From Cytophagaceae bacterium (GTDB lineage Bacteria > Bacteroidota > Bacteroidia > Cytophagales > Spirosomataceae), in assembly GCA_947464595.1 (NCBI GenBank), contig CANHXO010000012.1, forward strand, positions 1-35,539: DNA of 35,539 bases, written 5' to 3'. Positions 1 through 6,743 of this stretch are shown piece after piece. The position numbers were made by a program, and so were the translations under genes. The notes under the pieces were generated by a model, which was not told where the DNA came from, did no database searches, and saw only the letters and a program-made list of their open reading frames with translations. Each line of letters begins with the position of its first letter. Positions within the stretch are counted from its first letter, which is position 1.

Positions 1-508
1 CTCTTGAAGAGAATTTTGGCATGATGGCTTTTAAATCGGCTCTTAAATGATATATTTTTTTCTGATTTTGATCCTCTAAATCTTCACTTTGAATTCCATA
101 CATGGCGTAAGGCTTATTTGCATAATTCAATTTAAAATTTTGTATGGCTTGCTTAATAATCTCCTCAGCTCCATTGGTGATTTTTACTTCATCTAATTGG
201 TTTTCCTTAGTTTCCAACTCAACGATTAGATTATCTTTGACGTCATTTAGATTTAAATTCTGACTCTTATACCCTAAGAATGAAATCTTTAATTTATTGT
301 TTTTCTGAAGGTCTGCCGGCTTAATGGAAATTTTAAAGTAGCCTTCATGGGAGCTTATGACTCCTCTTAAACCTAATTGTATACTGGCATAGATTAGTGG
401 TTGTTTGCTTATTCGGTCAATAATTCTCCCATGGATTAGTTGGCCAAGGAATACATGAGGGGTCAGCAAATTGATAAAAATACAGCAAGTAAATAGGAGT
501 TTTTTCAA
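1..508 (-). CDS. Exported carboxypeptidase-regulatory-like domain protein (N-terminal part, runs off the window)
   Basis: This is the first 169 codons of a gene that continues past base 1. I chose the TTG at 508-506 because it gives a clean signal peptide (LKKLLF, then a hydrophobic run to about residue 21); no in-frame ATG lies nearby. Residues about 27-95 look like a CarboxypepD_reg-like beta-sandwich domain: GRIIDRISKQPL, then YASIQL, then SSHEGYFKI, then ISFLGYKSQ. Bacteroidota use this domain at the N-terminus of many exported and outer-membrane proteins. The segment after residue 120 (AEEIIKQAIQNF, then NKPYAMYGI) resembles DUF5686-type or related proteins, but too little is present to name the family. 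It lies downstream of the two double-glycine peptide genes on the same strand, separated by a hairpin. Whether it is functionally linked to them cannot be judged from this fragment. Confidence 0.75.
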   Translation of the reverse strand, partial: MKKLLFTCCIFINLLTPHVFLGQLIHGRIIDRISKQPLIYASIQLGLRGVISSHEGYFKISIKPADLQKNNKLKISFLGYKSQNLNLNDVKDNLIVELETKENQLDEVKITNGAEEIIKQAIQNFKLNYANKPYAMYGIQSEDLEDQNQKKIYHLRADLKAIMPKFSSR

Positions 509-532
509 TGCTTTAGTTTTTAGGTATGAGTA

Positions 533-567
533 AAGACTATAAGAATGCATGCGATTCTTATAGTCTT
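533..567 (-). terminator. Intercistronic hairpin between the double-glycine peptide genes and the downstream gene
   Basis: A perfect 14-bp stem (aagactataagaat, 533-546, with its complement 554-567) encloses a 7-nt loop. Read on the plus strand it is followed by a T-rich run; read on the minus strand, the direction of the flanking genes, the tail is only CTTTACT. It may act as a partial terminator or mRNA-stabilising hairpin that lowers expression of the downstream gene relative to the small peptides. Confidence 0.5.
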
Positions 568-573
568 ATTTTT

Positions 574-753
574 TTAAAAAGTCAGGGTTGTCTTAGTATT
601 TGTTGCCGTATTTTTAATTACTCCCCAAGCCCAATTGAAGCCCTCGATAAAACCAAGTTTAAAATCTGACCACCAATTTCCACCTGTGATTGCTAACATT
701 TCTTCTTGATTCATTTCACGCCAATGAATACTGTTTTCTATTGAATTTTTCAT
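574..753 (-). CDS. Double-glycine leader peptide A (bacteriocin-like precursor, 59 aa)
   Basis: A 59-residue ORF starts at ATG 753. Residues 1-25 form a polar leader ending EEMLAITGG, the classic double-glycine processing site cleaved by C39-peptidase ABC exporters. The predicted mature part (residues 26-59) begins NWWSDFKLGF, is rich in Trp and aromatic residues, and carries a GxxxG motif (GFIEG, residues 34-38). GxxxG is a hallmark of class IIb two-peptide bacteriocins. The gene lies 19 nt downstream of a second double-glycine peptide gene on the same strand, which supports a pair. No C39 transporter or immunity gene is visible in the window. It could instead be a signalling peptide or a modified-peptide precursor. 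That it is a secreted double-glycine peptide is fairly secure; its activity is inference. Confidence 0.72.
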   Translation of the reverse strand: MKNSIENSIHWREMNQEEMLAITGGNWWSDFKLGFIEGFNWAWGVIKNTATNTKTTLTF

Positions 754-772
754 TTCCGTTTATTTAAAGTGT

Positions 773-964
773 TTATATTAATGCCATTAATGTGGCCGAT
801 GGGCCTAAAACTGAAATAATGGCTATGGCTGTTACTATGACAGTTGCGATGCCTAAGATGACGCCAAGTGTATGCCAAAATCCTCCTCCTTCAATCTGTA
901 GCAACTCTTCAAATGTTAGCTCTTGAGCTTGCATTTGCTTTAAATCAAATATGTTGTTTTCCAT
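773..964 (-). CDS. Double-glycine leader peptide B (bacteriocin-like precursor, 63 aa)
   Basis: A 63-residue ORF starts at ATG 964. The leader (residues 1-27) has the pattern LTFEELLQIEGG, matching double-glycine leaders (acidic, with hydrophobic residues at -4, -7 and -12). The mature part of about 36 residues is strongly hydrophobic with a short aromatic/His start (GFWHTLG), a GxxxG motif (GVILG, residues 34-38), and alternating Ala, Ile and Val that would form one membrane-spanning helix, ending GPSATLMALI. This differs from peptide A, as expected for the two halves of a class IIb bacteriocin. It is upstream of peptide A by 19 nt, so both are probably on one transcript. No -7 box matching TAnnTTTG fully is seen upstream; TACATTTA about 70 nt upstream is the nearest. 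Function is inferred from sequence features only. Confidence 0.75.
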   Translation of the reverse strand: MENNIFDLKQMQAQELTFEELLQIEGGGFWHTLGVILGIATVIVTAIAIISVLGPSATLMALI

Positions 965-1123
965 TTTACTATTATTTTAAAAGGTTGAAATATTTATTTT
1001 TCGTCTTCGCGATGACTTTGTAAATGTAAATCATGAGATTCCTTTGTCTCATTCTGAAATGGACTAATTCATTCAGCATTTGACTATTTTTGATCGCTAA
1101 CCTGATCATTTTTGCCCACAAAA

Positions 1124-1147
1124 AAAGGCTCCCTGGGAGGAGCCTTT
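1124..1147 (-). terminator. Intrinsic terminator of the marR-nitroreductase unit
   Basis: A 9-bp stem (aaaggctcc, 1124-1132, pairing with 1139-1147) has a 6-nt loop. On the minus strand it is followed by a run of T, so it ends transcription about 50 nt after the nitroreductase stop and isolates the double-glycine peptide genes from that operon. Confidence 0.85.
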
Positions 1148-1195: not shown

Positions 1196-1825
1196 TTATA
1201 ATTGAACATACAATTCCGATTTCGGGGTTCTGACTTTTTTCACGTTGACCATATAATCGGTTGCTTCATCGCGTTCTCCGATCGCCAAAATAAGTACAGA
1301 ATGTAGCCCTTTAGCCTCTAGTCCTAATAACTCATCTAATTTAGCGGGCATAAAACCCTCCATGGGCGTGGTGTCGATCTTTAATTCAGCAGCAGCAGCT
1401 AAAGCTGTTCCCATCGCTAAATACACTTGACGGTCAGCCCATTCCGCTTGTTGTTCCTTTGATTTATATTTCATAGATCCTGCAATGGCTCCTTTGAAGT
1501 CGCCTAAGTCAGATACAGACATGCCGCGTGTTTCAGCAATTAAATCCATATAAGCATCAATGTGAGCTGCAGTAACTTCATTCCAAGCGGCCATTATTAG
1601 CAGGTGAGACGATTCTACAATTTGCGGTTGGCCATACGCGATCGGTTGAATTTTAGCCTTTAATTCGGCATCTTCTACTATGAATATTTGGTAGGGTTGC
1701 AAGCCAAATCCTGAAGCAGATAGTTGGATTGCATCCATTAATGTATTCACTTTTTCTTGAGAAACTTTGTTCCCAGTCATTTTTTTAACTGCATAACGCC
1801 ATGATAGCGAATCGATAATTGACAT
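1196..1825 (-). CDS. NAD(P)H-dependent nitroreductase-family flavoprotein
   Basis: The 209-residue protein has the usual length and pattern of FMN-dependent nitroreductases of the NfsB/YfkO type. Visible features are the N-terminal SWRYAVKKM (residues 8-16; FMN phosphate-contacting Arg and Lys), SASGFGLQPYQIFIV (36-50), and the late segment TTPMEGFMPAKLDELLGL, which usually contacts FMN and shapes the active site. The family reduces quinones, nitroaromatics or other electrophiles using NAD(P)H; the true substrate cannot be read from sequence. It starts 20 nt after the stop of a MarR-type regulator on the same strand, so the two are likely cotranscribed. This is a common pairing in which the regulator senses a reactive compound and controls the reductase. 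Confidence 0.9.
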   Translation of the reverse strand: MSIIDSLSWRYAVKKMTGNKVSQEKVNTLMDAIQLSASGFGLQPYQIFIVEDAELKAKIQPIAYGQPQIVESSHLLIMAAWNEVTAAHIDAYMDLIAETRGMSVSDLGDFKGAIAGSMKYKSKEQQAEWADRQVYLAMGTALAAAAELKIDTTPMEGFMPAKLDELLGLEAKGLHSVLILAIGERDEATDYMVNVKKVRTPKSELYVQL

Positions 1826-4257: not shown

Positions 4258-5520
4258 ATGTTAGAGAAAACATTAGTAGATAGCATCAAACAAAATCATT
4301 CATTGACCCAAGCTCAGCAATTGGCTTTAGGGAAATTTATTGATAAAGGTTTTCCCACCAGCAAATGGGAGGAATGGAAATATGCCTCTTTAAAACATTT
4401 AAATGAGTTTAATTGGCTTTGGTCGCCTGAAACATTAAGCGTTAATTTCCCTAAGCCTGATTGGAAGCATAGTGCTATCATTCAAACATTAAACGGGAAT
4501 ACCCATTCAGAAGGGGCCTTGCCTCAGGGGATTGCTCTTTTGTCCGTGTCCGAATTTATGGCCCAAAATCCTACTTTCGAATCAGTTTGGAACGCAAGAA
4601 ATCCTATTTTGGATCAAAATTCTTTGTACGATTTAAATGAAGCTTTAGCTACTGATTATGCTGTATTGTGGGTCAAGAAAGGGGTTAAAATTGCGGAGCC
4701 TTTGTTGCATCATTATTTCGTTTTGGGCCAACAAGACACCGCCGTACAATCAAAAATTTTCATTTATTTAGAGGAGGATTCGGAAATTACTTGGTTTGAA
4801 CAACAACGTTCTGAGTCTAGTCATGCGATTTTGTCGAATTATGTGCAAGACATTTGGGTATCAAAAAACGCCCACATTACCTTAATTAAAGATCAGGATT
4901 TAGGTCAAAACATAACACATGTAGATCATACGTTTATATTCCAACAAGAAAGCTCGTTGGTCGATGCGTTTACCTTCTCCATCAATGCCGGATATATACG
5001 TAACAACCTGCATTTTTACATTGATGGTCCACAGGTCGTTTCTAATTTGAATGGTTTGTATATTCCTGGCGAAGGCCAATTAATGGATACACATTCTGTG
5101 GTTGATCATCGCATGCCTCATTCCGAATCCAATGAATTATACAAAGGTGTCCTAATGGGAAATGCAACTGGTGTTTTCAATGGCAAAATTTTTGTTCGTC
5201 CCGACGCTCAAAAAACAAATGCATTTCAAAGTTGTAAAAATGTGTTAGCCTCTGATCGGGCAACCATGAATACAAAACCCCAATTGGAAATTTGGGCAGA
5301 TGATGTCAAATGTTCTCATGGAACAACGACAGGTCAGCTGAGTGACGAAGCATTGTTTTATATGCAGTCAAGGGGAATTTCAAAAGCTACCGCACAGACT
5401 TTATTGTTGCTCGCCTTCGTTCAGCAGGTGATCGACAAATTAGGCCATGATGAAATTCGAGCTGAATTGTCTGATAAGATTGTGAATAAAATACAGGCTT
5501 CATTAGGTTTAACCATATAA
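4258..5520 (+). CDS. sufD: SufD, Fe-S cluster scaffold subunit
   Basis: A 420-residue SufB/SufD-family protein. I start it at ATG 4258, 5 nt after the sufC stop; a TTG at 4228 inside sufC would only add ten residues unlike the family. The N-terminal helical part has FPTSKWEEWKYASL, typical of SufD. The long beta-helix core ends with the family's most conserved stretch, including KTNAFQSCKNVL, then KPQLEIWADDVKCSHG, then a C-terminal helical domain (LSDEALFYMQSRGI). SufD pairs with SufB on SufC dimers; the Cys and His in DDVKCSHG correspond to the family's conserved cluster-assembly region. SufB must be encoded elsewhere. Confidence 0.96.
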   Translation: MLEKTLVDSIKQNHSLTQAQQLALGKFIDKGFPTSKWEEWKYASLKHLNEFNWLWSPETLSVNFPKPDWKHSAIIQTLNGNTHSEGALPQGIALLSVSEFMAQNPTFESVWNARNPILDQNSLYDLNEALATDYAVLWVKKGVKIAEPLLHHYFVLGQQDTAVQSKIFIYLEEDSEITWFEQQRSESSHAILSNYVQDIWVSKNAHITLIKDQDLGQNITHVDHTFIFQQESSLVDAFTFSINAGYIRNNLHFYIDGPQVVSNLNGLYIPGEGQLMDTHSVVDHRMPHSESNELYKGVLMGNATGVFNGKIFVRPDAQKTNAFQSCKNVLASDRATMNTKPQLEIWADDVKCSHGTTTGQLSDEALFYMQSRGISKATAQTLLLLAFVQQVIDKLGHDEIRAELSDKIVNKIQASLGLTI

Positions 5521-5522
5521 AA

Positions 5523-6743
5523 ATGACCTTGGATATCCATAAAATTCGTCAAGATTTTCCCGTGTTGGACCAACAGGTCAACGGAGCACCCTTGATTTAT
5601 TTTGATAATGCTGCGACGACCCAAAAACCTAAATCGGTTATCGATGCTTTATCTCATTATTATGCGTCAGATAATGCAAATATTCATCGAGGTATTCATG
5701 CTTTAGCTGAACGTGCAACCACTGCATTTGAATTAACGAGAACGAAACTAAAGGATTTTTTAAATGCTCCGTCTTCCGATCAAGTCATTTTGACATCGGG
5801 TACTACGGCCAGCATAAATTTAGTAGCCCAGACTTTTGGCCGAGCTAATTTTTCAAAAGGTGATAAGATTTTAATTTCAAATTTAGAGCATCATTCTAAC
5901 ATTGTGCCTTGGCAAATGATTGCGGAGGAAAAAGGCGCGGTCATTGAGGTTATTCCAGTGGATGAAGATGGGGTTTTAGATGTAGCTGCTTACCGCAATT
6001 TATTGGACGCTACTGTGAAATTAGTGGCTGTAAATCATGTTTCTAATGCGATTGGTACCATTAATCCAATTGCGGAAATGATTGAATTAGCTCATGCACA
6101 TGGAGCAAAAGTATTGATTGACGGGGCACAATCCGTAGCACATTTAGAGGTGGATGTCCAAGCATTAGACATTGATTTCTTCGCGTTTTCTGCCCATAAA
6201 TTATTTGGTCCCACGGGCGTTGGTGTTCTTTATGGAAAACGTGAATTATTAGAATCTATGCCACCGTATCAAGGAGGGGGTGAAATGATTAAAGAAGTTT
6301 CCTTTGAGGGGACCACCTACAACGAATTGCCTTATAAGTTTGAGGCGGGAACTCCGAACATTGCCGACGTAATCGCATTTTCTGCCGCGATTGACTATGT
6401 CAATGGATTTTCAAAAGAGGTTTTATTTAAACAAGAATTAGCCCTTTTAGCTTATGCTACCGAACAATTAAAGGCCATTCCAGGTTTAAGGATTATCGGA
6501 AATGCGCCAGATAAAATTGCCGTTATTAGTTTTGTGATGGATGGTTTACATCCGCAAGATATGGGAGTTTTGTTGGACAAATTCGGTATTGCCATTCGAA
6601 CGGGACATCATTGTGTCCAACCATTAATGAAGCGTTTTGGATTACTGGGAACTTGCCGAGCTTCCTTTGCGTTTTATAATACGTTTGAAGAAATAGATTT
6701 ATTTGTGAAAGCCTTACGTAGGACGATTAACATGTTACAATAA
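5523..6743 (+). CDS. sufS: SufS, group II cysteine desulfurase
   Basis: This 406-residue PLP enzyme removes sulfur from cysteine as an enzyme-bound persulfide for Fe-S assembly. The N-terminal FDNAATTQKP (27-36), SNLEHHSN (119-126), the PLP aspartate and glutamine in LIDGAQS (198-204), the Schiff-base lysine Lys226 in SAHKLFGPTG, and the persulfide-bearing Cys364 in RTGHHCVQP are all present. The Lys and Cys positions match the numbering of E. coli SufS. It starts 2 nt after sufD and its stop overlaps the sufE start by one base, so it is translationally coupled to its sulfur acceptor. Confidence 0.97.
   Translation: MTLDIHKIRQDFPVLDQQVNGAPLIYFDNAATTQKPKSVIDALSHYYASDNANIHRGIHALAERATTAFELTRTKLKDFLNAPSSDQVILTSGTTASINLVAQTFGRANFSKGDKILISNLEHHSNIVPWQMIAEEKGAVIEVIPVDEDGVLDVAAYRNLLDATVKLVAVNHVSNAIGTINPIAEMIELAHAHGAKVLIDGAQSVAHLEVDVQALDIDFFAFSAHKLFGPTGVGVLYGKRELLESMPPYQGGGEMIKEVSFEGTTYNELPYKFEAGTPNIADVIAFSAAIDYVNGFSKEVLFKQELALLAYATEQLKAIPGLRIIGNAPDKIAVISFVMDGLHPQDMGVLLDKFGIAIRTGHHCVQPLMKRFGLLGTCRASFAFYNTFEEIDLFVKALRRTINMLQ

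Follow-up and report, generated by a model that had tools for sequence, protein, structure and literature searches.

A double-glycine peptide pair with a YbaB-like partner in Spirosomataceae: a candidate two-peptide bacteriocin-like cassette

Two-peptide bacteriocins and related systems

Gram-positive bacteria are the best-known source of two-peptide bacteriocins. In class IIb, adjacent genes encode precursors with double-glycine (GG) leaders and are accompanied by a C39 ABC exporter with an accessory protein, as well as by LytTR-style direct repeats in the promoter; the mature peptides, as in class II bacteriocins generally, typically are cationic. The class II microcins of Enterobacterales are single peptides with dedicated immunity proteins. 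As described in the available text of PMC8538875, the two class IIb peptides act as a pair, each carrying a GxxxG or similar motif, and the immunity proteins are membrane-associated. From Bacteroidota, the bacteroidetocins are portrayed as single peptides with four Cys residues and leaders of 15-16 amino acids, whose partners are a thiol oxidoreductase and a transmembrane protein; the portions of this source available to us report no recognisable immunity protein at these loci and self-sensitive producers (PMC6671954). Since IIBacFinder has listed class II candidates across phyla including Bacteroidota (PMC12648078), such peptides are not new to this phylum as such, and the accessible text of that source names no pair of the kind described here, no YbaB partner and not the present genus. 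The literature searched, largely judged by title, contained no description of such a pair or of a YbaB cassette.

The DNA analysed here (the window) is an entire contig, C12, of 35,539 bases, which belongs to a genome of 2.2 Mb in 140 contigs (73.8% complete). Two short genes near its left end very probably give rise to a secreted, matured peptide pair, and the small cassette which they open would, as far as its sequence tells, probably make, export and mature a two-peptide effector working like a class IIb bacteriocin or a two-peptide class II microcin. New here are the cassette-bound YbaB-like protein, the XRE gene at the cassette end, the repeat promoter and the chromosomal site, which in 13 relatives stands empty. 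With the class II microcins the system shares the GG leader, the C39 ABC exporter and a HlyD-type adaptor in a Gram-negative organism, but it has two peptides, and an immunity protein was not recognised. With the bacteroidetocins it shares GG-leader peptides of Bacteroidota, a C39-type exporter and the lack of a recognisable immunity protein (PMC6671954, available text); unlike them it consists of a pair with leaders of 21-29 residues and without any Cys in the window peptides. No thiol oxidoreductase was recognised in the cassettes, and the four-Cys single-peptide form is not what is found here.

The peptide pair

Both precursor genes lie on the minus strand and were established from the open reading frame list and translation. 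The first, pepA (773..964), encodes a precursor of 63 residues with a GG leader of 27 residues (bases 884-964), in which EELLQIEGG precedes GFWHTLGVILG, and a hydrophobic mature part of 36 residues (bases 776-883). The second, pepB (574..753), encodes a precursor of 59 residues, whose leader of 25 residues (bases 679-753) ends in EEMLAITGG; its Trp-rich mature part of 34 residues (bases 577-678) begins NWWSDFKLGFIEG. Only 19 bp separate the two genes in the window, and over 18 aligned pairs from related genomes (all pairs known to us except that of genome G202) this gap ranges from 6 to 35 bp with a constant gene order, leaders of 21-29 and mature parts of 24-37 residues. The original prediction of two adjacent short GG-leader genes thus was borne out: the reading frames were confirmed, and the two profiles hit one and the same set of genomes, with the genes side by side in unchanging order.

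For both peptides a GxxxG spanning residues 34-38 of the precursor had likewise been predicted and is indeed present. GG and GxxxG are kept by both peptides in 18/18 aligned pairs, and reading of the G202 pair by eye finds both motifs there as well, so that the proposed check on related genomes (precursors adjacent, motifs retained, always paired) came out in favour of the pair. It should be noted that a single mature part carries GxxxG by chance in 0.05-0.49 of shuffles, and because this chance is high the argument is not the presence of the motif, but its register across divergent pairs, which is nearly fixed: in pepB it always occupies mature residues 9-13, in pepA it starts at residues 6-8 (n=18), and G34 and G38 are among the invariant columns of both alignments of 18 sequences. 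Comparison of the window with five relatives gave dS of 0.55-1.18 and dN of 0.07-0.15 for pepA and pepB, with dN/dS of about 0.12-0.16 for pepA and about 0.08-0.20 for pepB; judged by these values, pepA and pepB are real genes under purifying selection.

The two mature parts differ in character, as had been foreseen. That of pepA is membrane-helix-like, with a best 19-residue Kyte-Doolittle mean of 2.4-3.0, whereas that of pepB holds two to four Trp residues. The helical moment of pepB exceeds its own shuffled mean in 18/18 sequences, yet since it passes 0.05 in only 9/18 and the window peptide fails (0.19), the "amphipathic" of the original prediction has to be softened to moderate amphipathicity, while hydrophobic A and Trp-rich B stand. 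Net charges of the mature peptides range from -1 to +1 for A and from -2 to +1 for B (18 pairs), and the peptides are therefore not cationic. In neither alignment is a Cys, Ser or Thr column of the mature part invariant.

Distribution among relatives

A pepA scan with one genome per species found six relatives, named as Cytophagaceae, Cytophagales or Sandaracinomonas limnophila FSY-15, and in 6/6 pepB follows directly downstream, and then C600, a gene for a CarboxypepD_reg-like protein of about 600 residues. Four of these loci (L002, L003, L004 and L006) are complete and read pepA-pepB-C600-YbaB-like-HlyD-C39; L005 is cut within HlyD. In S. limnophila FSY-15 (L007, genome G030), pepA, pepB, C600 and the YbaB-like gene (L103:3131-3400) stand together, and HlyD and C39 lie about 40 kb away. 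In genome G088, of another genus, the order is pepA-pepB-YbaB-like-C600-like-HlyD-C39, with genes for a histidine kinase and a LytTR regulator adjoining it. The producer's habitat, going by the names of the relatives, is probably fresh water.

In a profile search of 200 genomes of the family (E<=0.01), pepA matched 28 genomes and pepB 20. Strong matches of both profiles coincide, always adjacent, in 15/34 genomes of the window's genus, in G030 and in G088; G202 (L093) and G203 (L003) add two, which brings the pair to 17/38 genus genomes and two other genera. Weak matches (E about 2e-4 to 0.01), 10 genomes with pepA alone and two with pepB alone, were left uncounted, as was G028, which is weak for both profiles and has its matches inside a peptide array; G200 and G201, outside the profile search, were counted as pair-less on account of their empty site. 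An order-wide pepB search over 390 genomes, which included only some of the genus, matched six, strongly only G000 and G030. Going by these matches the pair may be narrow in distribution, or the pepB profile itself may be narrow.

The contig end and the exporter

On the window, the gene after pepB is C600, of which only the N-terminal 183 codons (2..550, minus strand) precede the contig end. Its start is the ATG at 550 or, in our reading, the TTG at 508, which aligns with the relatives' ATG; the N-terminus is hydrophobic and signal-like by eye, and the window's portion begins with the CarboxypepD_reg-like domain (7e-12). An AlphaFold model of C600 from six sequences reached a mean pLDDT of 30.6, too poor for a fold search.

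The sole C39 match of the same genome (1.0e-35) lies on another contig, C44 (L064), on which the order is the rest of C600, a YbaB-like gene of 85 codons, HlyD (380 aa), a C39 exporter of 720 residues and, in convergent orientation, an XRE gene of 70 codons. Past XRE follow the same genes as after the L003 cassette: a 481-aa PolyA_pol-head protein, a tRNA nucleotidyltransferase type ("CCA") by Pfam on the L003 copy, and reading frames of 209 and 614 residues. Aligned with the complete C600 of L002, C12 covers residues 6-168 and C44 residues 172-600. Because the two ends share no exact overlap, the adjacency of C12 and C44 is inferred, with synteny holding on both sides. The original prediction had noted that no C39 exporter or immunity gene is nearby and had concluded that export is encoded elsewhere. 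The former is, to the letter, correct for the window, but the exporter follows on C44 of the same genome, and its absence is an assembly artefact because the contig breaks off within the operon's third gene; the latter does not hold for this genome, where the next genes carry the exporter across the contig end, and applies only to other members of the genus.

Looking for a C39 exporter genome-wide, as had been suggested, was successful in the producer's own genome and in 15/17 pair genomes, versus 2/21 pair-less ones (genus, n=38; Fisher p 1.2e-6, uncorrected for relatedness); the two pair genomes in which C39 was not found, G195 and G202, are 71-72% complete. C39 and HlyD are encoded in cis with the pair in L002, L003, L004, L006, G088 and the window genome (C12/C44), L005 being cut. 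The L003 exporter contains C39, ABC membrane and ABC ATPase domains (PF03412 3e-33, PF00664 7e-46, PF00005 7e-30). Genus genomes with partial or compact cassettes have the exporter at another locus, with HlyD beside C39 in L065, L068, L069, L070 and L072; in L066, L067, L071 and L073 HlyD was not seen within 4.5 kb of C39. The C39 reading frame of L065 (G132) is split in two frames, by an error or as a broken gene. Both leaders show a weak resemblance to CtA, which is a peptide substrate of PCAT1, a C39 transporter (E 0.16 and 1.2). No outer-membrane factor was recognised in the cassette.

In L048, a reading frame of 187 residues at the HlyD position of full cassettes is similar to part of HlyD (2.5e-16), and L049 has a frame of the same length at the same position; such remnants suggest decay of a full cassette. 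The two pair-less genomes with C39 (G070 and G081) carry GG-leader-like reading frames, picked by pattern, at their C39 loci: the one in G070 (L074, 6249-11978) is a different C39/HlyD locus with three such frames, from which the pair is absent.

Chromosomal site, compact forms and immunity

In the window, the cassette is bordered by a conserved nitroreductase-family gene of 209 codons (1196..1825, minus strand; PF00881 4e-23), which lies outside it and is separated from it by a terminator-like hairpin with a T run (1126..1145, minus strand, read by eye) at the end of the nitroreductase gene. The pair stands downstream of the same gene in 16/17 pair genomes of the genus, and in the remaining one (G165) the contig starts too late. 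Among the 21 pair-less genomes, 13 have matches to the two flanking genes only 53-76 bp apart, that is, an empty site; G107, G186 and G147 hold other genes there, G141 is cut by a contig end, and the count omits G012, G115, G174 and G192. Because such clean empty alleles exist in relatives, we regard the place as a cargo site. In reading these loci we did not come across an integrase.

The interval between the nitroreductase gene and pepA is only 231-233 bp in L002, L003 and L006. In L005 a PIN-domain gene (962-1369) lies between the two. Other cargo was seen between the nitroreductase and CCA genes of G107, G186 and G147 (L090, L091 and L092), among it an ion-channel-like protein (PF00520) at L090:1955-2632.

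Compact loci allow the core of the cassette to be read. Seven of them (L050-L056, of which L054 has a short masked run) have inserts of 1.10-1.16 kb that consist of pepA, pepB, the YbaB-like gene and a convergent XRE gene, and L057 has an insert of 0.89 kb without the YbaB-like gene. XRE ends the cassette in 15/15 visible genus loci (ten partial or compact, five full), and the one XRE protein tested matched HTH_3 at 5.7e-14. When reading frames of at least 25 residues were scanned in the eight compact inserts (0.9-1.2 kb), no membrane immunity gene was seen: the hydrophobic frames of this size other than pepA overlap named genes on the opposite strand, wholly or partly. PADLOC returned nothing for four proteins at 0.01. 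The G+C content is 33% at window positions 1-1000, 30% in the C44 cassette and 38% in the rest of the window, where 1-kb stretches span 28-42%, and the composition of the cassette hence is not exceptional.

The YbaB-like protein

A small YbaB-like reading frame is found in 16/17 pair genomes and in 0/21 others of the genus, the exception being G195; in G202 it sits on a contig apart from the pair. In seven pair-less genus genomes, YbaB-type matches do occur, but inside reading frames of at least 787 residues. PF02575 is matched at E<=0.1 by 11/11 aligned YbaB-like proteins, best at 4.3e-8, with genus members below the 25.5-bit cut-off. A profile of these proteins finds YbaB structures at 4e-4, and the G030 protein is not recognised as YbaB at 0.01. 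An AlphaFold model from five sequences (mean pLDDT 53.5) was too poor for a fold search. None of the 38 genus genomes yielded a YbaB/EbfC protein that passes the Pfam cut-off, and a housekeeping YbaB is therefore not recognisable in the genus.

Outside the genus, the other hits above 60 bits among the 200 family genomes (G001, G088, G113 and G155) all lie within about 4 kb of C39, the gene in G113 holding an internal stop; the hit in G030 (42.6 bits) adjoins the pair. The profile also has a hit of 39.9 bits in G005, where a C39 gene lies 9.7 kb away. Weak YbaB-type matches are common in the family (135/200 genomes); the weaker hits there are mostly longer reading frames, which we take to be the housekeeping gene.

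For YbaB-like proteins in secretion there is a described precedent: EspH and EspL of the mycobacterial ESX-1 system have been proposed, in the available text of PMC6107294 and PMC6319747, as dedicated substrate chaperones. There, as here, a YbaB-like protein is encoded with a pair of secreted substrates (same sources, as far as available), but secretion system and substrates are others, and the analogy is limited to the YbaB resemblance. In the cytoplasm of the producer the protein most likely acts on the peptides, as escort or for protection, rather than on the nucleoid. We put forward more tentatively that it was recruited as a dedicated cytoplasmic partner, be it a chaperone or a non-membrane self-protection, of a two-peptide GG effector, in convergence with ESX-1, and that two peptides, an escort and XRE might make up a new minimal toxin cassette of the two-peptide kind that lacks a membrane immunity gene.

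Promoter region

Upstream of pepA, the window contains a direct repeat GAAT-N16-GAAT with a 20-bp period (1051..1074, minus strand), a candidate activator site, and a TAnnTTT box (TACATTT, 1022..1028, minus strand), a candidate -7 element, 46 bp after the repeat start. The spacing of the repeat recalls LytTR sites, and the Bacteroidota -7 promoter consensus is TAnnTTTG. None of the genus pairs has this strict box upstream. The relaxed pattern, with TAnnTTT 46-47 bp past the repeat start, is present in 16/16 genus pairs examined, and its distance to the start codon varies (-110/-64 in the window). It was picked after viewing the alignment, and shuffle rates of 0-0.005 are therefore optimistic; it occurs once more in the window, where 1.45 occurrences are expected by chance over the whole length. 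G030 and G088 lack it. Nor does the pattern mark exporter genes at other loci, where its matches fall inside a downstream reading frame or, in L075, far off. The three LytTR genes in the window's own genome are uninformative.

Class membership and possible function

The features shared with class IIb are two peptides with GxxxG in each (PMC8538875, available text), together with adjacent GG-leader genes, a C39 exporter with an accessory protein, and the spacing of the promoter repeat. The present pair differs in its Gram-negative host, its near-neutral charge, the lack of any membrane immunity gene in the loci seen and its YbaB-like and C600 partners, and no curated class IIb profile matched above its cut-off: lactococcin G-alpha reached 27.6 bits against 37 (L007), and TIGR03949 reached 18.2 against 21.5 in G088 and 13.9 in the window, bit scores covering 12/18 pepA sequences and E-values alone the other six. 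The only cut-off passed by any peptide of the pair is that of the ComC leader model, by pepB of G088 (24 versus 20.4 bits). Structure searches with the peptide profiles returned no class IIb bacteriocin; the bacteriocin-type hits are leader-like, namely CtA and, for pepB, also a "bacteriocin-type signal sequence" protein (E 1.6). Of the original class IIb assignment, the GG pair, the GxxxG motifs and the C39 exporter remain, whereas charge, immunity gene and profiles speak against it; as these features were tested and not found, we do not claim membership of class IIb.

The system nevertheless is, by the features of its genes, probably an antibacterial two-peptide system. In the mechanism we propose, pepA and pepB stand at the head of a small cassette, which within the genus always occupies one chromosomal site and in which a conserved promoter-like region would drive the pair, followed in full forms by C600, the YbaB-like gene, the HlyD-type adaptor, the C39 ABC exporter and the convergent XRE gene. 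The C39 domain, as its family suggests, would cut both leaders after GG during ABC/HlyD export, while the YbaB-like protein would escort the peptides to the exporter or give protection in the producer's cytoplasm. Hydrophobic A and Trp-rich B could then meet in the membrane through their GxxxG faces and permeabilise competing, probably related, bacteria.

A pair directed against the producer's own population, lysing it as the gonococcal Nap peptides do, would account for the absence of an immunity gene from the compact cassettes and has parallels in bacteriocin-like peptides of a Gram-negative island, which bring about autolysis and for which antimicrobial activity could not be detected (PMC11798529, available text), and in the self-sensitivity of bacteroidetocin producers (PMC6671954, available text). 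We nonetheless consider it unlikely, as the Naps are cationic and come with the immunity protein NapI according to the available text (PMC11798529), whereas the present pair is near-neutral. The near-neutral charge, together with the signal-like N-terminus and the CarboxypepD_reg domain of C600, would also suit a secreted but non-toxic pair that leaves by the same export route and has its role at the surface, in adhesion or in the envelope. This we judge quite improbable, for C600 is missing from the compact forms, and GxxxG in both peptides and a patchy distribution at a cargo site suit conflict genes better.

Could the peptides instead be pheromones, a quorum signal in which both take part or in which one signals for the other? 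Their leaders resemble pheromone models (BlpC, at 8e-5 at best for the window and far short of its cut-off; ComC, whose cut-off is exceeded only by pepB of G088), the promoter has a 20-bp-period repeat, XRE is present in all 15 visible genus cassettes, and in G088 the pair has a histidine kinase and a LytTR regulator as neighbours. Yet the matches to leader models span the leader and a few residues only, in the genus cassettes that we read we noticed no kinase, and two long co-conserved mature parts (24-37 residues), one of them membrane-helix-like, are unusual for a pheromone; we hold this explanation to be very improbable. That the peptides are modified (RiPPs) and their tailoring enzyme escaped notice appears extremely improbable: weak pepA hits to XyeA (0.13) and daptide (2.3; 0.062 in G088) stand against mature parts without invariant Cys, Ser or Thr and against compact inserts and full cassettes in which no tailoring enzyme was recognised.

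If the reading as an antibacterial pair is true, the two-peptide architecture extends to Gram-negative bacteria by way of a conserved, clean-edged Bacteroidota cassette, the problem arises of how a producer protects itself without an immunity protein in its membrane, and a YbaB-like protein gains a testable job in peptide export. Tests are within reach, since the genes are short and a named relative, S. limnophila FSY-15, carries a pair.

Related peptide loci

Further loci with GG-leader-like peptides were observed outside the genus. For plantaricins EF and JK, the available text of PMC8538875 reports immunity proteins of the Abi type (Rce1/CAAX-like). In another genus, a contig of 10 kb (G028:C103, L059) contains, between 545 and 7371, 23 GG-leader-like reading frames picked by pattern, among which a 42/47-aa pair is repeated near-identically several times, and a Rce1/CAAX-like protein at 5223-5951. 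In L101 (G155:C1:7048001-7062000), GG-leader-like reading frames, a CAAX/Rce1-like protein, a C600-like and a YbaB-like protein, HlyD and C39 are found together; such export loci form a wider group in this bacterial family.
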